A DNA stretch of 64,000 bases from Chamaelirium japonicum. Taxonomy: Eukaryota > Streptophyta > Magnoliopsida > Liliales > Melanthiaceae. Position 1 is the stretch's first letter; the number at the start of each line of letters is the position of its first letter. Below the pieces are notes generated by a model. That model was not told the DNA's origin and searched no databases. It saw only the letters and a program-made list of their open reading frames with translations. The stretch spans positions 69,261,716-69,325,715 of the forward strand of contig OX393553.1 of assembly GCA_947650365.1 (NCBI GenBank). The letters are read 5' to 3'. Shown here in pieces: positions 6,781 through 34,048 of the stretch. Both the position numbers and the translations under genes were made by a program.

Positions 6781-6949
6781 GACCCAATATGGATCCCACG
6801 GACCATGGTGATCGATTGTATTTCTCGAGAAATGACGTTTAGCTAAGATAAACATGATCGCAAGACAATCCAAACTACATAAACAATTCACAAGAGAAGA
6901 AACAATATGCAAACACGAATCATACCACAAAGAAAATCACAAAGCCTTA

Positions 6950-8068
6950 TCGATGTAGGGTAGAGATGCCATTGTCCTCCCAACATGCTCGATTCCACTA
7001 TGATTTGAAACAATTGAGCAATTGTTCTTACAAACGTTCCTCTCTTTCTTCCTTACAACCCCTCTAGGGTTTCACAAACACTAATCTCTCTTAATTTTTT
7101 ATTCTCACAAAAGTTCCTTAAGAGTTACTAAATAAACCCACAAAATCCTTTATATAATAGGTAAAAGTTCCCAACTCATATAGGCCCGGAACCCTAAGTT
7201 TCAGCCTTAAAACAAGTCAACGAATATCAAATCCTGTGCAACCCATTGACTGGTGTGCACCAGCCCATGGTGACTGGGTGGTGCACACCCAAGTGCGCAC
7301 CACTTAAGGTAGCTCCAGCCCCCGATGCTTCTCTTGTTACCACTTGCGGAGTTTCATGTTTGTTGCCTTAATTTGTGTGTTCAAACCATTGCATGAGAAA
7401 TTACATGTAATTGGTTCTACTGATTCGTAATAGCACTCACCTTCAGGAAGATCAACTAAGAACATCTAAAGACTCGATAGTCCATCACATATCCTTAGTT
7501 TCTCACACTTGAGAGACATACGATGAGTCGAATTTATAGGGGTAAAGTAGGGTTTTTTTATCGTACTGATACAAGCAATTTTTATAGCTTTTATCATAAC
7601 ATGCTTTTTTGGTTCAACATGTATGATTTAAAAAATAAATCTCACTTTAGAGTTATTGTTTTTATAAATAAAAGATTATTTAATGCTTGAAAGTTTGAAA
7701 TGTGGTTTTAGTTTTGTCAGATTTGAGTCAACAGGAGGGGTCCAACACTTATAAGGAAGAATTTGAAAATAATATGAGAACAACATGCTGAAAAAAAATG
7801 TGCAAGTAACAAGCCATCTTTGACAGGTAGATTAACCCGAGGGCTACGAAGTGAGTAACACGGGGGGAATCTACCCCATCACCCTAAACTAGAACATCAA
7901 CAGCTGAATCTGGTTGAGGCAATTCATCAAACAAGTGGTCTGCATCTTTTTTGTTTGAAATTCCAGAGCAGCAAAATCTCAAACAGCACCATCATCAACA
8001 AAACCTTTAGAACATATTGCTCCAGTACAGCAAAACCGATCGGTTAGATAACACTCGTCAAATTTTAC

Positions 8069-9599: not shown

Positions 9600-12272
9600 G
9601 CTTAATTAAACACAATATCAATGGATGGTGTGCCAGTGTGTGACTAGTTAATTTTTTCTGAATTATATTAATTTTTCGATGTTGCTATTTGCACCCATAA
9701 AATTACTAAGGGCCCCCAACTCACCATAAAATATATATGTGATCCATATGTATCCAAGGCCTTCTAGGCATTTTAATAAGGGCACCACGTACCACTGGAG
9801 CCACTGGTCCCATGCAACTGATCGTCGACCACCTCCGGCCTCACCAGTTCTCGACCTACTCCTCCTCCTGCCTTCTCCTTTCCTTCTTCGTCAAGTTCCT
9901 CCTTCCAACTGACTCGTCTCAATATAGGAAGAGCTTAAGGAAGAGGAAGACGGAGCAGCACTACAAGAATCAACATATTTCCCGACACTGCAGTTCGATC
10001 ATCGGCAAGTGGCTATCTATGTTGCAAAAAAAAAAAATTCCGACGTAACAACATGTATCGCCTTGATATCAAAGTAGCCAAGTCTGTGAATCTCCTCAGT
10101 CACGCCTAGGTGTTTGCGTCGCTAAAGGTTAAGTATTTTTAAGCGATGCATATAGTGCTGCCAAAACAAAGTTGCAATATTACCTCAACGTTGCAAAAAG
10201 TAATTGTAGAAGTCAATTATTTGGCATTTAGGTAGTGACGCGAATAACATATCACATAAGGTTAATTACTTTTACAACGTGGTTACAAATGTTGCTAAAA
10301 GTAGCATTTGGTCTTTAGTTTTTCAATATTTCCTTCCAATTTTCTAATATGGAGCCCTATCGGGAAGAAAATTCAGCAAAGCAGGTTAATCATGAATATA
10401 CTAACTAAGAAGTCCCCTCCTGATCGTTACCCGATGAGTTTTTCCCAAGCAAAGCAAAACCCGCATGCTTTAGAGTGTTCATCACGATTGCCTTGAAAGC
10501 ATCGAATTTTTTCATTTTCTTGTTCTGATATACAATTTGATGGTTCTGAGACTCGACCACCTTTCTAAAGCTCCTCACCTCCATCTCATGTGTCCAAGAT
10601 TAAGTGGTAGTTCTAGCATAGTAGGGCTTCGGATCGATCCCGAATCTCCTCAAGTGCCTCAGTCTCAAGCCAAGCACCTCAATCGACATCTCTTTTTTGC
10701 TCATTGCGGCTACATCGGACTGTAAACACCTATCGTGTATCTTTACAGATTCATCACGTTATTTTTACAAGAACTTAAACAGTTAGTTATTTTGAAATTA
10801 ATATTGTAACAATTTAATAAAAGTCCAATTAGTATACGTTTATGTTTTTCCTTATATGTCCGATATATGCACCCAATCATTCTTCAGCCTACTCTAGTAC
10901 GAGACTCCTTATAGAAGTCCACGATGTGGGGCTTCTGGCTGTCATTCGATGCCGCCTGATTTCATTAGTTCTACGTGTCAGACTATAACTAAGTATGGGT
11001 AACTAAATAACTTTTTTTAATTTTAAAAACACATCACCATGATAGACATCGTTACTGAAAAGACCTTGACCAGTATATGTGAATGGACCGCTTTGGTATT
11101 CTTTGACAGAACTTACAAAAAAAAAGTAATTAAAACAAAAAGTAAAATTCTAGTGAAATCAATCATAACTAATAGAGATTTTAGATAAGTAGCTTAGTGA
11201 TAGAGATAATACATAGATTGTATCTTCCACTTCTCATCAGTCCATACATGGTTGATCATGTAGTTTTAATTCACTGACTTAACCCCCCGACCGAGGCAGC
11301 TTGGTTTTGGGATCAACACCATCCACCAACAGCTTCTCTCATACTTGAGGTGCAAGAGGCACTTCCTGCTCATGTATTTCAACTGCCATTTTTATCAATG
11401 GCAGCCTGTACATTGGGATTAGTGTCATAGTCCTTGATATCACAGCTATCTTATAAACATTGATATTGATATTTATTGAATACAATAAATTAACCTAATT
11501 AAATAAATTAATAATTAGAATGTAATTATCAGAGCTTGATGTATGATTGCCCTTCTACGTGAGATATCCATATCGGTCTATGTACTGACGCCTTGGAGAG
11601 GTAGGGCCCCTCTAGTTTCTTTGTCAATCTCAGAGATGAGAGAAGAGGCTTCAGGCCCCACTAGCACATTACAGTCATCCGGGACTTCCACTGGGAGCCT
11701 ACCCGAACATGTTACAAGCTTGCCTCTCAGCCCTCTGACCCCGTGAAAGGCCCCATACAACCCTCGAGGTTTTTGTTGAGGTTGCAAAATGATATTTGAG
11801 TTAGTATACATAACACGTTCAAGTAAGATAAAAATTATATGCAAAGAAAGCAAACTTTACAGGTTGTATTACGACGCGATGCCCCTTGCATTTTGTTCTT
11901 GATTTGGTACTGGAAGGTACGTGTTTGATCATATGACTTGTTGTAGAAAGTGTAAGTTGAGGGCGGAGGTTTCATCGGTGGTGGAGGAGGAAGGGGAGTG
12001 GGAGGAGGAGGAGGAGGAGCATGAAGAAGGGGAGGAGAAGGATGGGGAAAGGGGGAGGAGGTGGCATCGGTGGCGGACAGAGCAGGAGGGGGTGGAGGAA
12101 AGGAGTTTGAGTGCCCAATCATAAAAGGGGCTTTAGCAAAAAAAAATTGAATCAAGCAGAGGTGCCAGTATCAAATTGGGGGCCCCAGTAATTTAGTGGG
12201 TGCAAATAACAACACCCAACGTTTTTGGTGGTCCAAAGTGGCTCTAGGTTTGGGCAGACCGCCAACTTTAGT
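9600..12272. other. intergenic; one isolated CACTA-like end and possible gene remnants
   Basis: At 9959 the sequence CACTACAAGAATCAAC looks like a left CACTA end; it is followed to about 10,330 by short 'gttgctaaaagta'/'gtcgctaaagg' motifs. I found no partner right end. A minus-strand open frame at 11578-11853 has ordinary-looking protein composition, and an adjoining proline-rich frame follows at 11835-12155. No other gene was supported. Confidence 0.4.
11578..12155 (-). pseudogene. possible gene remnant, unrecognised
   Basis: Two minus-strand frames lie side by side. The upstream one (12155 to about 11835) is a proline-rich run. The downstream one (11853-11578) contains the stretches GLYGAFHGVRGLRGKLVTCS and VEVPDDCNVLVGPEASSLI, whose residue mix resembles a real folded protein. 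I do not recognise the family, see no convincing splice sites and cannot exclude chance. It is listed because no transposon explains it. Confidence 0.25.
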
Positions 12273-13076
12273 CACTACAAGAAATAGGTTTTTTACCGAC
12301 GAAAATTTCTATTACCGTTGGTACTAATATATATTTTACCGACGGTAATAATATTTTCCGTCAGTAATAAGACTTTGATTTTTTTTTATTTTTTTTTCAT
12401 ATTTATTACCGACAGTTATATATTATCCGTCGGTAATCTACCTTTACCGACGAAAAATATTACGTCCGTCGGTAATATATGTTATTACCGACGATAATAC
12501 AAAAGTCCGTCGCTAATAATATATTTTATATTTTGCTATTTTTTTCGTTTATTTTTACTAACGGTAACTATATCTCCGTCGGTATAACTAATATTACCGA
12601 CGGTACAGGTTGATTCCATCGGTAATATTAATATATAAATTTTAATTTATTTTTACCATTTTAATTACCGATAGAAAAAGAATAATTGTTGGTATAAAAC
12701 TACTTTTTATCGACGAAATATATACTGTCATTCGGTAAAAACCCTGCGATTTTATAAACGTCCCCGATCCCCATTTCTGTTTCGATCTAAATATCCCCCC
12801 CTCCCCGGCCCCCCTACCCTCTCTCTCTCTCTCTCTCGATCTAATTCCCCCTCCCCTCCTTGGCCTTCCTCTGATCCCCTCCCTCGCGTGCCTCCGGCCG
12901 GCCACCCCTTCCCTCCCTTGCGCCTCCGGCCACCCCTCCCCTCCCCTTCCTCGCGCCACCGACCGGCAATGCTGCTCGACGTCCCCTCCGCCGACGCCAC
13001 TGCTCCTCCTCCTCCTCGAGCCCTCCCTCTCCATCTCCGGTGAGCTCCTCCTCCTCCTCCCTCTCCCCGTTAGTTT

Positions 13077-13890
13077 ATTTTGTTCCAAATCGCATCCTAA
13101 AGTTTGAAATGTTAGCACAATACCCCTTTTGTCATCTACTTAATTCCCTCATTTGGTAATTATTATCTTATTAAAACTGAATTGAATGGGGGCAAAATAT
13201 AGTTTTTAGACACCATAATTTTCTATATTAACTAAGGTCTCTACAAGTATATATTCCTCTTTAGAATGAGTATATATTCGTCTTCAGAAAGTGTATATTA
13301 GAAAGAGTATACATTCATTTTCAGAAAGTGTATATAGTTGTTAAGGTTTAAGGTTTAGGGTTTAGCATGGGGTTTAGGTTAGGTTTAGGGTTTATGTTAG
13401 GGTTTAGGGTGGGGTTTAGTTTAGGTTTAGGGTTTAAGTTTTGGATTAGGGTTAGGTTTAGGGTTTAAGTTTTGGATTAAGTTTAGGTTTATGGTTTGGG
13501 TTTAAAGTTTAGGTTTAGGTTTAGGATTAGGGTTAGGGTTAGGTTTAGGTTAGGGTTATGTTTAGGGTTTAGGTTTAGGATTAGGGTTAGGGTTAGGTTT
13601 AGTGTTTAGGTTTAGGGTTTAGGTTTGGAGTTTGGTTTACGGTTTAGGTTTAGGTAAGGGTTTATATTAGGTTTAGGGTTTAGGTTTAGAATTTAGATTA
13701 GGATTCAGTTTATTTTGTTCCAAATCACATCCTAATCAAAAAAATCCCTCTCCTTAATTTATTTTGTTCCAAATCGCACTCTAAAGTTTGAAATGTTAGC
13801 ACAATACACTTTTGTCAACTACTTAATTTCCTTATTTGATCATTTTTATCTGATTAAAATAAAATTACAGGGAGAAAAATATAGTTTTTT
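13077..13890. repeat. telomere-like block between two direct repeats
   Basis: From about 13340 to 13710 the plus strand is a degenerate run of TTTAGGG, GTTTAGG and TTAGGG units, related to the plant telomere repeat TTTAGGG but without long perfect runs. It is flanked by two copies of a segment of about 130 bp beginning ATTTTGTTCCAAATCGCA (13077 to about 13210 and 13743 to about 13890). The block is therefore interstitial and probably expanded inside the CACTA element; it is not a chromosome end. Confidence 0.75.
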
Positions 13891-14760
13891 AAATTAGTAG
13901 CTCACGAACAAGTTCGGTAACTCTAAATTAGTCAATTCGATAGCAAAATCTTAAATATCTACTAAATACTCATTCGTAAGTCGAAAATACAAAAAACCAT
14001 ATAAGTACGAATTATTGGATGGATCCGATGACGATCCGATCGAATCCAAACCAACTTGAAAATGTAAAACTCGAAAACTTATGATTTTTAAATACTTAGT
14101 CTCTAAATTAGTCAATCTGATAGCAAAATCTTAAAATATATAGTAAATACTCATTTATAAGTCAAAAATATGAAAAACCAAACGACCGAGTATGAATTAT
14201 CGGATGAGATCCGATAACGATCCGATCGAATCTAAACCAAATTCAAAATCTGAAACCAGAATACTTATGATTTTCAAACACTTAGACTCTAAATTAGTCA
14301 ATCCGGTGATAAATTCTTTAAATATCAAATATATACTCGTTTGTAAGTCGAAAATATGAAAAATCAAACAAGTACGAATTATCGAATGTGATCCAATGAC
14401 GATCAGATCGAATCCAAAACCAACTTCAAAATTCAAAACCCAAACACTAATGATTTTCAAACACTTAGACTCTAAATTAGTCAATCCGACAATAAAATCT
14501 TAAAATAACTAAAACATACTTGTTTGTAAGTCAAAAATACAAAAAATCATACGAGTGCAAATTATCGGATGCGATCCGATGATGATTCGATAAAATCCAA
14601 ACCAAGTTCAAAATCCAAAACATAAAAACTTATGATTTTCAAACACGTAGACTCTAAATTAGTCAATCCGACGGCAAAATCTTAAAATATCAAGTAAATA
14701 CTCGTTTGTAAGTCGAAAGAATAAAAAATCATACGAGTACGAATTATCGGATGTGATCCA
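13890..14760. repeat. satellite block A (diverged copies)
   Basis: About five head-to-tail copies, each about 180-190 bp, of the same sequence as the larger block downstream. Shared landmarks are a phrase like TATGATTTTTCAA, TAGACTCTAAATTAGTCAAT and a GATCCGATCGAATCCAAACC-type box. Copies here differ more from one another than in block B and carry their own variants (tagcaaaatcttaaa in place of gcgtaaattgttaaa), so the blocks were amplified separately. Confidence 0.8.
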
Positions 14761-14841
14761 ATGACTCGTTTAGTAAACGAGCCAAGCTTAAGCAGACCAA
14801 AAGCTCGGCTCGTTTGGGCTCGCGAATATGCTTATTTAGGG

Positions 14842-15041
14842 CGATGATGATAATATTAATACGGACGATGGCGATAACATGCAGGGTATGATATATGATT
14901 TGTAAGGTGGCATAGGCACGGATGCTGAGTCTAGTACCAATCGAAGGAAGAAAAATATATCTGCAAAGGTTCTCCAACACTTCCCGCTTAGGGACAGGCT
15001 TCAAAGGTTGTTTATGTCATCGAAGACTGCTGAGCCAGTAT
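14842..15041 (+). pseudogene. CACTA transposase (TNP2/Transposase_21-type) relict
   Basis: The plus-strand translation contains KVLQHFPLRDRLQRLFMSSK (14966 onward) followed by TAEP. I recognise this as the conserved block of plant CACTA transposases upstream of the catalytic core. Just before it is a Ser/Asn/Arg/Lys stretch, and upstream of that GMIYDL followed by an in-frame TAA (about 14900). Only about 65 residues of a protein normally over 700 residues long remain. It supports assignment of the surrounding interval to CACTA and sits directly upstream of the captured ARGONAUTE exons. Confidence 0.75.
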
Positions 15042-15116
15042 GTTATAACTAAAACATGCTCTTACTAAAAATTATGAACCAAGTTATTTATAGCTATTAC
15101 TTTGATTGCTACCCAG

Positions 15117-15596
15117 AGAGCTTTTAGTCGCCTTCTATTAATCGATGCGGCAAAAGCCTTATAGAATCATATTCTACAGGTGGAACATTGCTTATTATTT
15201 TTTTTTTCTCACTATTGTGATTATGCCTCCCATGTGAAAGCTTCTCTTAACATGTGTCTACATATCACAGGGACGGTATTAACGAAGGGCAATTCAATCA
15301 TGCCCTGCTCTATGAAATGGATGCGATTGAAATGTAAGTATTTGTTTCATTGCTTACATCTAGTAAGCAAGTAAATGGTCTCTCTCTCTCTCTCTTATGA
15401 TAGTGATGTAGCCTCTGTTTTTCTTTTAAATGATTGAATTTTGTTTTTTAATCATGCTAGGCGTGTGTCTCGTTGGAAGAAGGATATCTCCCTCCTATGA
15501 CATTTGTAGTAGTGCAGAAGAGGCATCACACCCGACTGATTCCTGCTGTGCATGGAAACCGGGATTCAATTGATCGAAGTGGAAATATATTACCGG
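15117..15596 (+). pseudogene. captured ARGONAUTE fragment (PIWI domain, three exons with introns)
   Basis: Three plus-strand segments joined at GT-AG sites match the plant ARGONAUTE PIWI domain. Exon a (15117-15179) reads ELLVAFY, a stop, then SMRQKPYRIIFYR. Exon b (15271-15333) reads DGINEGQFNHALLYEMDAI. Exon c (15461-15596) contains [20 protein letters not shown] and then DRSGNILPG. The a-b junction rebuilds YRDG, whose Asp is the second catalytic acid of the DEDH slicer site. Intron 1 is 91 bp (gtggaa to cacag); intron 2 runs 15334-15460 (gtaagt to gctag). A TAA lies at 15139-15141, and the b-c junction appears to have lost a base. The EEGYLPP wording suggests the AGO5/MEL1 side of the family, by inference only. 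Upstream is a transposase relict; downstream, satellite starts within a few bases of the exon c donor site. It cannot encode a working protein, but transcription could yield small RNAs matching ARGONAUTE genes. Confidence 0.88.
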
Positions 15597-15599
15597 GTA

Positions 15600-18500
15600 G
15601 GTATTGTCGGATGCCAATTCGATGACGATTCGATCGAATCCAAACCTATTTCAAATCCGAAACACGCTAACTTATGATTTTTCAACTCTTAGGCTCTAAA
15701 TTGTTCAATCGGAGCGTAAATTGTTAAAATATCCAATTAGAACTCACTCGCAAGTCCGAAATACAAAAAAAATTCTAAGTACGAATTATCGGATACCGAT
15801 CCGATGATGATCCGATCGAATCCAAACCTATTTCAAATCCGAAATACGCTAACTTATGATTTTTCAACGCTTAGACTCTAAATCGGTCAATCAGAGCGTA
15901 AATTGTTAAAATATCCAATTAGAACTCACTCGCAAGTCCGAAATACGGAAAAATTTCAAGTACGAATTGTCGGATGCCGATCCGATAATCGAATCCAAAC
16001 CTTTTCAAATCCGAAACACACTAACTTATGATTTTTCAACGCGTACACTCTAAATCGGTCAATCTGAGTGTAAATTGCTAAAATATCCAATTAGAACTTG
16101 CTCGCAAGTCCGAAATACGAAAAGATTTCAAGTACGAATTATCGGATGCCGATTCGATGACGATCCGATCGAATCCAAACCTATTTCAAATCCGAAACAC
16201 GCTAACTTATGATTTTTCAATGCTTAGACTTTAAATGGGTCAATCGGAGCGTAAATTGTTAAAATATCCAAGTAGAACTCGCTCACAAGTCTGAAATACA
16301 AAAAAATTCAAAGTATGAATTATCGGATACCGATCCGATGACGATCCGATCGAATCCAAACCTATTTCAAATCCGAAACACACTAACTTATGATTTTTCA
16401 ACGCTTAGACTCTAAATTGGTCAATCGAAGCGTAAATTGTTAAAATATTCAATTAGAACTCGCTCGCAAGTCAGAAATACGAAAAAATTCCAAGTACGAA
16501 TTATCGGATGCCGATCCAATCGAATCCAAACCTATTTCAAATCCGAAACATACTAACTTATGATTTTTCAACGCTTAGACTCCAAATCGGTCAATCGGAG
16601 CATAAATGGTTAAAATATCTAATTAGAACTTGCTCACAGTCTAAAATATGGAAAAATTCAAAGTACGAATTATCGGATACCGATCCGATCGAATCCAAAC
16701 CTATTTCAAATCTTAAACACGCTAACCTATGATTTTTCAACGCGTAGACTCTAAATCGATCAATCGAAACGTAAATTGTTAAAATATTCAATTAGAACTC
16801 GCTCGCAAGTCCGAAATACGGAAAAATTCCAAGTAAGAATTATCGGATGCCGATCCGATGACGATCCGATCGAATCCAAACCTATTTTAAATCCAAAAAA
16901 TGCTAACTTATGATTTTTCAACGCTTAGACTCTAAATAGGTCAACCGAAGCGTAAATTGTTAAAATATCCAATTAGAACTCACTCGCAATTCCGAAATAC
17001 GAAAAAATTCCAATTACGAATTATCAGATACCGATCCGATGACGATCCGATCGAATCCAAATCTATTTCAAATCCGAAACACGCTAACTTATGATTTCTC
17101 AATGCTTAGACTCTAAATCTGTCAATCGGAGCGTAAATTGTTAAAATATCCAATTAGAACTCGCTCGTAAGTCTAAAATACGGAAAAATTCCAAGTACGA
17201 ATTATCGTATGCCGATCCGATCGAATCCAAACCTATTTCAAATCCGAAAAATGCTAACTTATGATTTTTCAATGCGTAGACTCTAAATCGATCAATCGAA
17301 GCGTAAATTGTTAAAATATCCAATTAGAACTCGCTCGCAAGTCCGAAATACGAAAAAATTTTAAGTACGAATTATCAGATGCCAATCCGATCAAATCCAA
17401 ACCTATTTCAAATCCAAAACATACTAATTTATTATTTTTCAATGCCTAGACTCTAAATGGGTCAATCAGAGCGTAAATTATTAAAATATCCAATTAGAAC
17501 TCGCTCGCAAGTCCAAAATATAAAAAAATTCTAAGTACGAATTATCGGATACCGATCCAATGATGATCCGATCGAACACAAACCAATTTCAATCTGAAAC
17601 ACGCTTAGACTCTAAATCGGTCAATCGGAGCGTAAATTGTTAAAATATCCAATTAGAACTCGCTCGCAAGTTCAAAATACAGAAAAATTCCAAGTACAAA
17701 TTATCGGATGTCGATCCGATCAAATCCAAATCTATTTCAAATCCGAAACACGCTAACTTATGATTTTTCAACGCTTAGACTCTAAATCGGTCAATCGGAG
17801 TGTAAATTGTTAAAATATCCAATTAGAACTCGCTCGCAAGTCCGAAATACGGAAAAATTCCAAGTACGAATTATCGGATACTGCTCTGATCGAATCCAAA
17901 CCTATTTCAAATCCGAAACACGCTAACTTATGATTTTTCAACTCTTAGACACTAAATGGGTCAATCGGAGCGTAAATTGTTAAAATATCCAATTACAACT
18001 CGCTCGCAAGTCCGAAATACGGAAAAATTATAAGTACAAATTATCGAATACCGATCCGATCGAATCCAAACATATTTTAAATCTGAAACATGCTAATTTA
18101 TGATTTTTCAACGCTTAGACTCTAAATTGGTCAATCATAGCGTAAATTATTAAAATATCCAATTAGAACTCGCTCGCAAGTCCGAAATACGAAAAAACTC
18201 CAAGTACGAATTATCGAATGCCGATCCGATCGAATCCAAACCTATTTCAAATCCGAAACACACTAACTTATGATTTGTCAACGTTTAGACTCTAAATCGG
18301 TCAATCGGAGCGTAAATTGTTAAAATATCCAATTAGAACTCGCTCGCAAGTCCAAAATACAAAAAAATTCCAAGTACGAATTATCGGATGCCGATCCGAT
18401 GACGATCCGATCGAATCCAAACCTATTTCAAATCCGAAACACTCTAATTTATGATTTTTCAACGCTTAGACTCTAAATGGGTCAATCGGAGCATAAATTG

Positions 18501-19195
18501 TTAAAATATCCAATTAGAACTCGCTAGCAAGTTCGAAATATAGAAAAATTTCAAGTACGAATTATCGGATACCGATCTAATGACGATCCGATCGAATCCA
18601 AACCTATTTCAAATCCGAAACACGCTAACTTATGATTTTTCAACTTTTAGACTCTAAATGGGTCAATCGGAGCGTAAATTGTTAAAATATCCAATTAGAA
18701 CTCGCTCACAAGTTTGAAATATAGAAAAATTCCAAGTACGAATTATCGGATACCAATCCGATGATGATCCGATCGAATCCAAACCTATTTTAAATCCGAA
18801 ACACGCTAACTTATGATTTTTCAACGCTTAGACTCTAAATCGGTCAATCGGAGCGTAAATTGTTAAAATATCTAATTAGAACTTGCTCGCAAGTCCGAAA
18901 TACGAAATAATTTCAAGTACGAATTATCGGATGCCGATCTGATGACGATTCGATCGAATCCAAGCCAATTTCAAATCCGAAACACGCTAACTTATTATTT
19001 TTCAATGCTTAGACTCTAAATGGGTCAATCGGAGCGTAAATTATTAAAATATCCAATTAGAACTCGCTCACAAGTTTGAAATACGAAATAATTCAAAGTA
19101 CGAATTATCGGATGCCGATCCGATGATGATCCGATCGAATCCAAACCAATTTCAAATCTGAAACATGCTAACTTATGATTTTTCAACGCTTAGAC
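15600..19195. repeat. satellite block B, about 20 tandem copies of 170/181 bp
   Basis: The anchor CTTATGATTTTTCAA recurs at about 15671, 15853, 16025, 16206, 16387, 16557, 16726, 16907, 17088, 17258 and on to about 19172, giving about 21 units. Spacing alternates between about 170 and about 181 bp. The difference is one 11-bp step in the box GATCCGATGACGATCCGATC, where short units have a single GATCCGATC. One unit near 17590 has lost about 14 bp. The whole array is AT-rich, has no coding potential and lies inside a CACTA-bounded interval. Confidence 0.92.
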
Positions 19196-20071
19196 ACTCA
19201 ATTATAGATATAAACTATTTTTTTAACAAATACATGTTAATTGTAGGATGTGCAGCGTTAGGGGATGAGAGCACCAACGTTGGTGCCGGGCGGCGTGGGG
19301 TGGTTGAGCTAGGGCACACATCTTCCCTAAGTTTTGGATTATGTAAAAATAATTTTTTAATAAATATGTAGTCATTTTTTGGTCTTGTCTATAATTGTCT
19401 GTTATTGTGATAATATTTGATAAATTGCGGTAATATTTGATAAATTACGGTAATAGTTAATTTAGTCAATTATGGTAATATTTGAATATATTGTGGTATT
19501 ATTTGATAAATTGCGGTAATATTTGATAAATTGTGGTAATAGTTGATTTAGTGAATTTTGGTAATATTTGAATATATTATGATATTGTTATAAATCACAG
19601 GAATTAAAAAACATTATTTAAGTAATTTTTTTAAAAAAAAATCATGTTTTTTTGCCGAAGGAATTTATGACTTCTGTCGGTAATAAGCTATTTTTTTAAA
19701 AAATAATTTGTATATTGGCGACGGAATTTTTAATGTCCGTCGGTAATAACATTATATATTGCCGACGGACGGTAATATTCCGTCGGCAAAAATCTTATAT
19801 ATTGCCGACGGATAGTAATATTCCGTCGGCAAAAATCTTTTATATTTATAATTAAATATTCGTATATTATCGACGGATACAAAATATTCGTCGGTATTAA
19901 TTATTAATACCGACGAAAATTTTGTGTCCGTCGCCGATTTTTCCCGATGCCTTTTTTCCCGACATATTAGCGACGGAAATGACTTCCGTCGCGATAAAGC
20001 TTTACCGACGGAAAACTAACTTTACCGACGGATATTTTCCGTTGGTAAAAACTATTTTTTTTGTAGTGAGT

Positions 20072-22594: not shown

Positions 22595-22988
22595 GAATGG
22601 GATGCTGCCTATCAAAGCAGCGTTTTTGCTGCTTTGAGACATTGTTTGACCATCCTAGAAGTTTTGGAATTTGATAAAATTTGGTGAGGGTGTTGTCTAG
22701 GGTAAGATGATCATCCTCACAAATTTTCATCAAATTCCAAAACTTCTAAGAAGGTCAAATGGTCGAAGCAAAATGCTGCAGATTTTAACGGTGACTGCGG
22801 ACGACTGATTTTGCTTCGACCATTTGAACCCCCTAAAAGTTTTGGAATTTGATGACAATTTGTGAGGATGATCATCTTACCCTAGACAACACCCTCACCA
22901 AATTTCATCAAATTCTAAAACTTCTAGGATGGTCAAACAATGTCTCAAAGCAGCAAAAAATGCTGCTTTGATAGGCAGCATCCCATTC

Positions 22989-31869: not shown

Positions 31870-32950
31870 GGGAAATTTTATTCATACCCCATAAATCTGT
31901 AATTAGCTCTCATTTCCAACAAACTTGAACACACCCTATTTTTTTTATTCATACCCCATTCCTATTCCAAAAATATCCTTTCCCTTTACACCCCACCTTC
32001 AATACACCCCAGTTAAATGGCCCGCCCCAACTTGATTATACCCCAATCAAACACATACCCCCTTAAATATATCCCAATTATATGCACTCTTGAATACACC
32101 CCACTCTTAAATAAACCCCATGCAGTTGGCTGGTACTTGAAGGCACAAGTAGAGCTGCAACTTGGGCGGGCCAATCTGAACCCAACCTGAATTTGGGCGG
32201 GCTAATCCGAGCCCAATCCGAATTATTTCTTCTTGACCCGACACAAAGTTAGCGGGTCTAGGTCAGGGCTAAACGGGTTCGGGTCGTAAACGGGTCAACA
32301 CAATAGACCCGTTTAATAAACGGGTCTGGCCCGGGTTTAGGGTCTGGACACGATAGATTCGTTTAGTATTCAACGGGTCGGGTCGGGTCAGGTCTACCAG
32401 CAATCCGATACTATAATATATAATACCAGTGGGTCTTTCGGGTCAGGTCGGGTTGAGTCGGATTGGGTCGGATCGGGTCAATTGAATAGATCCGGGTGGT
32501 AAACGGGTCTTACCGGGTCTTATCATGTCTACCCGTTTATTAGTGAGTCGGGTACGGGTTTAGGATCTAGACACGATTAGCTAAACGGGTCGGGTCCGGG
32601 TCTAGGGGTTTTTGACACGACACGAAACTAGACACGACACGAACCCGACACGACCCATTGCCACCCCTAGCTGCAACTTGGGCGGGCCAACCCGAACCCA
32701 ACCTGACTTTGGGCGGGTTAACCCGAACCCACCCCGCACAACCCGGCCAACCCGACAGGTTGGGCTTGGGCTAAGTTTAAACAAACCTCGGGTTGGGTTG
32801 GGGGTACAAAAGACGCTGAGTAGGGGCGTTGGGGTTTGGAGTACAAAAAAAAAAAGGGCATTGTTGGTATTAAAGGATTGTTGAGTAAGTTATTGAGAAA
32901 CGATAGGGATAGGGGGCTAATTACAGATTTTTGGGGTATGAATAAAATTT
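31870..32950. mobile_element. terminal-inverted-repeat DNA element, copy 1
   Basis: Begins GGGAAATTTTATTCATACCC and ends with its complement, GGGTATGAATAAAATTT. The interior is a mosaic of GGGTCGGGTC, CGGGTCTAGG and GGGCGGGCCAA phrases with no transposase. It is followed immediately by a second, closely similar copy, and the copia element landed in its first bases. Superfamily uncertain. Confidence 0.7.
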
Positions 32951-34048
32951 GGGAAATATTATTCATACCCCATAAATCTGTAATTAGCCCCCATTTCCAA
33001 GAAACTTGAATACACCCCAGTTTTTTTTTCATACCCCATTCCTATCCCAAAAATACCCTTCCCCCTTACACCCCACCTTCAATACACCCCAGTTAAATGG
33101 CCCGCCCCAACTTGATTATACCCCAATCAAACACATACCCCCTTAAATATATCCCAATTATATGCACTCTTGAATACACCCCACTCTTAAATAAACCCCA
33201 TGCAGTTGGCTGATACTTGGCACAAGTAGAGCTGCAGCTTGGGCGGGCCAACCTGAACCCAACCCGAATTTGGGCGGGCTAATCCGAGCCCAACCCGAAT
33301 CATTTCTCCTCGACCCGACAGGACCCGACACGAAGTAAGCGGGTCTGGGTCAAGGCTAAACGGGTTCGGGTCGTAAACGGGTCGACACGATAGACCCGTT
33401 TATTAAACGGGTCGGGTCCGGGTTTAGGGTCTGGACACGGTAGACCTAGGAAGACCCGTTTAGTATTCAATAGGTCATGTCGGGTCGGGTCGGTTCTACC
33501 AGCAATCCGATACTATAATATATAAAACCAGTGGGTCTTTCGGGTCAGGTCGGGTCAAGTCGGATTGGGTCGGATCGGGTCAACTGAATAGATCCGGGTG
33601 GTAAATGGGTCTTATCGGGTCTTATCGTGTCTACCTGTTTATTAGCGAGTCGGGTACGGGTTTAGGATCTAGACACGATTAGTTAAACGGGTCGGGTCCG
33701 GGTCTAGGGGTTTTGGACACGACACGAAACTAGACACGACACGAACCCGACACGACACGACTCATTGCCACCCCTAGCTGCAACTTGGGCGGGCCAACCC
33801 GAACCCAACCCGACTTTGGGCGGGTTAACCCGAACCCACCCCGCACAACCCGACGGGTTGGGCGTGGGCTAAGTTTAAACGAACATTGGGTTGGGTTGGG
33901 GTACAAAAGACGTTGAGCAGGGGCTTTGGGGTTTGGGGTATAAAAAAAAGGGCATTGTTGGTATTAAAGGATTGTTGAGTAAGTTATTGAGAAACGCTAG
34001 GGATACGGGGGCTAATTACAGATTTTTGGGGTATGAATAAAATTTCCC
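32951..34048. mobile_element. terminal-inverted-repeat DNA element, copy 2
   Basis: A head-to-tail duplicate of copy 1, very similar over nearly its whole length with small indels, starting GGGAAATATTATTCATACCC and ending GGGTATGAATAAAATTTCCC. The tandem arrangement without spacer suggests a duplication of the element rather than two independent insertions. Confidence 0.7.

Follow-up and report, generated by a model that had tools for sequence, protein, structure and literature searches.

A MEL1/AGO5-type ARGONAUTE segment carried by an amplified CACTA lineage in Chamaelirium japonicum

Gene capture by CACTA transposons is known, and a close precedent for the case described here is the miR820 CACTA element of rice, in which a fold-back gives a 22/24-nt miRNA that cleaves OsDRM2 and of which Nipponbare has five copies (excerpt of PMC3459959). 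Captured coding DNA also characterizes Pack-TYPE elements, and those of CACTA type are mostly of low copy number in rice and maize (excerpt of PMC8903248). In maize, captured gene fragments have been described as siRNA reservoirs that affect their donor genes (excerpt of a 2026 review, PMC13317346).

Here we analyse a stretch of 64,000 nucleotides (the window) on contig C5 of a 1.52-Gb assembly of Chamaelirium japonicum, which holds a CACTA element with a fragment of an ARGONAUTE (AGO) gene. The finding is larger than first noted: it concerns an amplified CACTA lineage with a MEL1/AGO5-type piece, the gene from which it was taken is part of the machinery by which transposons are silenced, and the donor is identified. 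MEL1 is a germline ARGONAUTE that binds phasiRNAs. In rice meiocytes at early prophase I, phasiRNA accumulation depends largely on OsRDR6 and MEL1, and the targets of 21-nt phasiRNAs include 71 transposons (excerpt of PMC7562718). Judged by title or the beginning of the abstract, no report of an ARGONAUTE fragment in a CACTA element was found among the open-licence papers listed.

Host element, captured segment and donor gene

The host in the window is a complete element (Table 1). Its terminal inverted repeats start with CACTA, a 3-bp target-site duplication flanks it and a TNP2-type transposase occurs in its family, all of which place it in the CACTA (En/Spm) group. Its subterminal repeats are of the CCGACGGT type. 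On reading the sequence, only a transposase relict is seen inside, and positions 14906-15037 of it are 34/38 identical to an open TNP2-type ORF elsewhere in the same genome (L051). With captured coding DNA, an identifiable donor and a relict of transposase, the window element would also count as a Pack-TYPE (Pack-CACTA) element; a short-type copy at C1:8.70 Mb departs from that class, which by definition has no transposase gene. Beyond the element, the window contains a MITE-like palindrome at 22623-22959 (152-bp arms, 95% complementary, a 33-nt gap and adjacent AT microsatellites) and, at 31941-34000, two direct GC-rich units about 1.1 kb apart that are 83-98% alike in pieces.

Table 1. Features of the CACTA element and of the captured segment, in window positions
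Feature	Position	Strand	Basis or match
Left target-site duplication AGT	12270..12272	.	
Complete CACTA (En/Spm) element, 7796 bp, ends CACTACAAGAAATAG...ATTTTTTTTGTAGTG	12273..20068	+	
Right target-site duplication AGT	20069..20071	.	
Left subterminal repeats, ACCGACGGTA type, limits approximate	12285..12740	.	reading and tandem rows
Degenerate TTTAGGG-like (telomere-like) array within the CACTA element	13340..13689	+	
182-bp satellite array, about 4.6 copies	13920..14765	+	
TNP2-type transposase relict (..AKVLQHFPLRDRLQRLFMSSKTAE), stop 14903-14905, start approximate	14848..15037	+	
Captured MEL1/AGO5-type segment	15031..15607	+	90.5% identity to L009:6887-7460
Exon remnant 1, donor exon 16, in-frame TAA	15117..15179	+	donor alignment
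Retained intron, GT...AG	15180..15270	+	donor alignment
Exon remnant 2, donor exon 17, Asp of YRDG, 1-bp deletion near end	15271..15333	+	
Retained intron, GT...AG	15334..15460	+	donor alignment
Exon remnant 3, donor exon 18, no stop	15461..15596	+	donor alignment
First bases of next donor intron; deletion joins them to satellite	15597..15607	+	
181-bp satellite array, about 20 copies	15603..19202	+	
Right subterminal repeats, CCGACGGA/TCCGTCGG type, limits approximate	19640..20055	.	reading and tandem rows

In the window the captured segment measures 577 bp. At its start are the final bases of the preceding exon, followed by all of the intron before exon remnant 1, and it is cut at donor position 7460, where satellite follows. 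When joined by hand, its exons match the Protein argonaute 10 structure 7sva, which we take to be from Arabidopsis (E 1.9e-25).

Most of what the first-pass annotation had claimed for this fragment is borne out. For the three PIWI exons with both introns that it had placed at 15117-15596, alignment with the donor gives an identical outer span; the remnants correspond to donor exons 16-18 with GT...AG preserved at both introns, and the catalytic Asp of YRDG is found where a split codon for R is followed by D. The stop and the frameshift that it had reported are the TAA of exon 1 and the single base missing from the end of exon 2. Capture at the DNA level, rather than by retrotransposition, agrees with the match between donor and copies, introns included. 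The single CACTA-bounded interval is one element with AGT on both sides, and the supposed transposase relict, upstream of the fragment on the same strand, resembles the TNP2-type ORF noted above. The annotation had also suggested looking for the donor in the same genome and for other CACTA copies with the fragment; the former lies on C2 and the latter occupy about 200 further places.

A Piwi search of the genome gave at least 35 matches (130 of 293 candidates scored), and 13 of the 20 ten-kb loci fetched around Piwi matches also matched the fragment at the DNA level. The donor is the gene at 90.73 Mb of C2 (L009, C2:90728500-90738499), whose match to the window element is limited to 15031-15607. 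By our gene model it is intact, with 22 exons, GT-AG at all introns and 1000 aa without a stop, and ArgoN, ArgoL1, PAZ, ArgoL2, ArgoMid and Piwi all exceed their Pfam cut-offs. Among the best 120 of 1573 protein matches, the highest are monocot MEL1-like proteins (Phoenix 69%, Typha 70%, rice 72%), and the first 21, where named, are from monocots at 65-73% identity. Judged by its AGO domains and nearest homologues, the donor is closest to MEL1/AGO5.

Capture joint, copies and their history

Altogether about 1.03 kb of the donor was captured (L009:6887-7916), that is, four PIWI exons with their introns (exons 16-19 of 22). Comparison of the 10-kb donor locus with the window element and 12 further loci gave a match over 6887-7916 at most, and outside this piece there was a single 53-bp reverse match, to L016. 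At the left joint, TNP2 reads ..GCTGAGCAC, the donor ..GATGATCCGG and the copies ..GCTGATCCGG; in longer form, with a slash at the joint, the element reads ..GACTGCTGA/GCACATG, the donor ..GGGATGA/TCCGGTATG and the copies ..GACTGCTGATCCGGTATG. The TGA at this joint is common to both parents and constitutes a 3-bp microhomology, and the joint lies just before the donor's splice-donor site. At the right limit, three copies (L020, L031, L033) extend to donor position 7916, and many others end at 7903, trimmed at TATG into satellite. A CACTA element copied this part of the MEL1/AGO5-type gene as DNA and joined it beside its own transposase remnant, and the TGA would be expected under template switching during gap repair, the putative mechanism. 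Bearing on a capture by fusion of two neighbouring elements are the short microhomology at the joints and the 10 kb over which the donor locus was read. A fusion protein of transposase and AGO was considered and rejected; by our reading the two frames differ by one base (TNP2 ..SSKTAD/P), nor is any selection apparent.

The piece is abundant. In the assembly, the joint left by a common internal deletion occurs at 204 places, the left joint at 30 and the sequence within the deletion at 11, donor and window included (all at up to 3 mismatches); chance is excluded, since the reversed-pattern controls gave 0 in each case. Because the sets with the deletion joint and with the sequence inside the deletion are mutually exclusive, at least 204 + 10 = 214 places in the 1.52-Gb assembly carry the AGO piece, and by pattern count the deletion derivative is its commonest form. 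The 100 of the 204 deletion joints that were listed lie on the large contigs C1-C10, and a first DNA search had given at least 42 matches (40 of 699 candidates scored). Separate insertions are somewhat fewer than these place counts, as the assembly has allelic or duplicated contigs: L013 (C133) and L014 (C18), with flanks 97.9% identical over 749 bp, are one insertion. The 30-base left end of the family occurs at 1566 places (up to 3 mismatches; control 0), so the AGO-bearing elements are a minority of the CACTA family.

All 30 places with the left joint were read as loci, 18 with the deletion and 12 without it. If those 18 are among the 204, the left joint at up to 3 mismatches is absent from 186 deleted copies. 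Three of this kind were read; their AGO part measures 250 bp in L029, 313 bp in L030 and about 574 bp in L050. The first of them is the short-type copy at C1:8.70 Mb, where Transposase_21, Transpos_assoc, DUF4218 and DUF4216 are found in separate ORFs; the right CACTA end is present and the left end lies beyond the stretch read. A 37-bp flank of this element occurs at 56 places, of which 35 are on C1-C9; comparison by eye put a listed AGO joint without mismatches no more than 1.2 kb away from at least 22 of these 35. In the element itself (C1:8694500-8712499; L052, L029, L051), 181-bp satellite arrays of about 0.9 and 3.5 kb lie in opposite orientation on either side of the AGO piece and a coiled-coil-like ORF; a transcript running through both arrays could fold into a long hairpin whose loop contains AGO.

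Ends were sought in 13 elements, that of the window and those at 12 loci. Both were found in seven (window, L011, L013, L014, L016, L017, L019), and all 7/7 are flanked by identical 3-bp duplications; as L013 and L014 share a site, these represent six sites. In the other 6/13 (L010, L012, L015, L018, L020, L021) at least one end was missed or fell beyond the stretch. The view that nothing was captured, and that the fragment is part of an ordinary local AGO gene or of an assembly join, is practically without probability: the identical joint at 30 places, the perfect ends and duplications of the seven elements and the position of the donor on another large contig already refute it.

The 177-bp deletion was present in 21 of 35 copies (18 long, 3 short). 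Its effect is an in-frame fusion of exons 18 and 19 at a GTGG repeat, and the outer splice sites are kept in the copies read with it, e.g., L016 5072-5323. Donor exon 18 (about 7357-7365 of L009) contains TTTGTAGTG, identical to a CACTA terminus, and this borders the common deletion (L011-L018). A cut by transposase at this cryptic terminus was rejected as the origin of the deletion, since GTGG is shared by both of its sides (..GTAGTGGTGCAG / ..GTCGTGGACAC) and an ordinary microhomology deletion suffices.

The AGO-bearing CACTA lineage was amplified in at least two waves. A FastTree phylogeny of 32 copies and the donor (donor branch, 0.037) has an early, star-like burst of undeleted copies with terminal branches of 0.023-0.056 and a later burst of deleted copies, whose mean pairwise difference is 0.022. 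The clade of deleted copies has a support of 0.96-0.97, and many inner nodes are weak; among the three short copies the mean difference is 0.011. Transposase acting in trans would have spread the AGO-bearing element after its formation, and deletions have whittled the piece down to what is left in the window, L029 and L030.

Sequence change, RNA potential and competing readings

Counted as distinct departures from the majority base per site, changes among the 35 copies were 94/225 at codon positions 1+2, 49/113 at position 3 and 266/675 in introns. At such equal rates the AGO piece looks neutral. Selection on it had been a candidate and was dropped: a deficit of exon changes in the counts of copies against donor vanished when changes were counted within copies, which assigns the deficit to constraint on the donor branch. 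The donor itself departs from the majority base of the copies at 4/225 (positions 1+2), 5/113 (position 3) and 41/675 (introns), and the first figure against the last indicates constraint on the donor.

Use of the piece as protein, for instance as a dominant-negative PIWI segment made from element transcripts, could draw on several of these features. Splice sites are kept, the 177-bp deletion leaves an in-frame fusion, one short-type copy sits within an element with TNP2 domains, and 11 of 15 translated copies, most of them of the young deleted form, are free of stops over the exon parts that they contain. The last point can be put down to how recent the deleted form is, however, and the equal rates in introns and at both classes of codon position speak against such use, as do the stops in L010, L017, L019 and the window and the frameshift in the window. 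We consider it highly implausible.

Transitions at C/G sites were frequent in the copies, at 0.033 (CG), 0.021 (CHG) and 0.018 (CHH) versus 0.004 at A/T, with A/T sites as the reference; in every context C>T/G>A changes were thus about 4 to 8 times as frequent as transitions at A/T, an excess that would fit past methylation of the copies. Conceivably, 24-nt siRNAs from silenced copies also methylate the gene body of the donor to some extent, with no benefit to the element. The C>T/G>A excess and the maize fragments that serve as siRNA reservoirs (excerpt of PMC13317346) are in line with such a side effect, whereas the donor's frame, intact in our model and constrained as described, bears no sign of lasting damage. 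We regard this as possible, if rather unlikely.

The captured donor exons comprise 257 exonic 21-nt windows, of which the window copy covers 197; 15 of these 197 are identical to the donor and 179 match it at up to two mismatches, and in L033 as many as 122/257 are identical. The 35 copies contain 2280 distinct exonic 21-mers, which were compared with both strands of eight AGO loci: 184 of them recur without mismatch in the donor, and the seven other loci share none exactly. At up to one mismatch the figures are 1076 for the donor versus 0-4 for the seven others, and at up to two mismatches 1842 match the donor. The close target would hence be one gene and not the ARGONAUTE family. In this respect the earlier reading has to be narrowed: an ARGONAUTE PIWI fragment acquired as DNA, introns included, by a mobile CACTA element stands, and the family-wide target that had been suggested gives way to a single gene.

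It is possible, then, that the copies yield small RNAs matching the donor. Material for siRNAs against that gene exists, and no structure favouring their production was found. There is no inverted AGO match in the 12 fetched 10-kb loci and the window element, and the window segment folds slightly better than its shuffles (z -1.79; 4 of 100 as good), the L016 piece no better than its own (z +1.70; 96 of 100 as good). On these grounds a hairpin or miRNA precursor was rejected.

Could the element profit? If 21-24-nt small RNAs from the copies lowered the MEL1/AGO5-type donor in the germline, transposition might be eased. This would have a close precedent in miR820/OsDRM2, from the same superfamily and pathway (excerpt of PMC3459959), and it would agree with the high copy number, with the 21-mers that match the donor (184 identical, 1842 at up to two mismatches), with the large reliance of phasiRNA accumulation in rice meiocytes on OsRDR6 and MEL1 and with the 71 transposons among the targets of 21-nt phasiRNAs (excerpt of PMC7562718). 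Against it, the reverse strand of the window element and of the 12 loci contains no match to the captured donor segment, the L016 piece folds no better than its shuffles, exons and introns change at equal rates among the copies and the commonest form is without part of the piece. Nor does the donor carry, in the captured exons, an excess of third-position change such as escape from siRNAs might leave (5/113 versus 41/675 in introns). An RNA counter-defence of this kind does not seem favoured by these data, and we think it improbable. The more specific proposition that CACTA siRNAs from about 200 copies tune down germline MEL1, and with it the dependent control of phasiRNAs or transposons, we would rate a shade lower. 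If true, it would follow miR820/DRM2 as a second instance in which a CACTA lineage uses captured sequence against RNA silencing.

In our view, the AGO piece is quite probably a passenger, captured and amplified by a CACTA element. The window copy has no working frame, selection is not seen across the copies and deletions erode the piece, which together argue for this reading, under which the piece would lack a function. Its copies would be methylated, silenced transposons, and any small RNAs from them would be siRNAs of ordinary silencing that match the donor by coincidence. Some observations fit a passenger less comfortably, namely the donor-identical exonic 21-mers (15/197 in the window, up to 122/257 in L033), the 11/15 stop-free copies, the in-frame fusion of two AGO exons with splice sites kept and the slightly favourable folding of the window segment.

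Comparison with known systems

The presence of the AGO piece at about 200 places makes a direct test possible, in which small RNAs of the copies are set against the mRNA or the methylation of the MEL1-type gene. If they reach either, the present case would join miR820/DRM2 as an instance of a recurrent strategy. If they do not, a large load of ARGONAUTE-matching sequence would be tolerable without visible cost to the gene.

As in the miR820 CACTA element, exon- and intron-like sequence of one silencing-pathway gene sits within the element and multiplies with it (excerpt of PMC3459959). In contrast to that system, the gene here is an ARGONAUTE, about 200 places are involved and no fold-back was found. 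Compared with rice MEL1, of the AGO5 clade, the donor protein is closest to monocot MEL1-like proteins, and of such a gene the window retains no more than a broken piece of 577 bp. The maize fragments (excerpt of PMC13317346) are similar in that captured sequence may direct siRNAs at donor genes; they differ in being carried by Helitrons, Pack-MULEs and Sireviruses and in that siRNAs were measured there and are putative here. With Pack-CACTA and other Pack-TYPE elements the lineage shares captured coding DNA and CACTACAA ends (excerpt of PMC8903248). Unlike the Pack-CACTA elements surveyed, it occupies about 200 places, mostly as a deletion derivative, at least one copy lies in an element with transposase domains, and several kilobases of 181-bp satellite are found inside.
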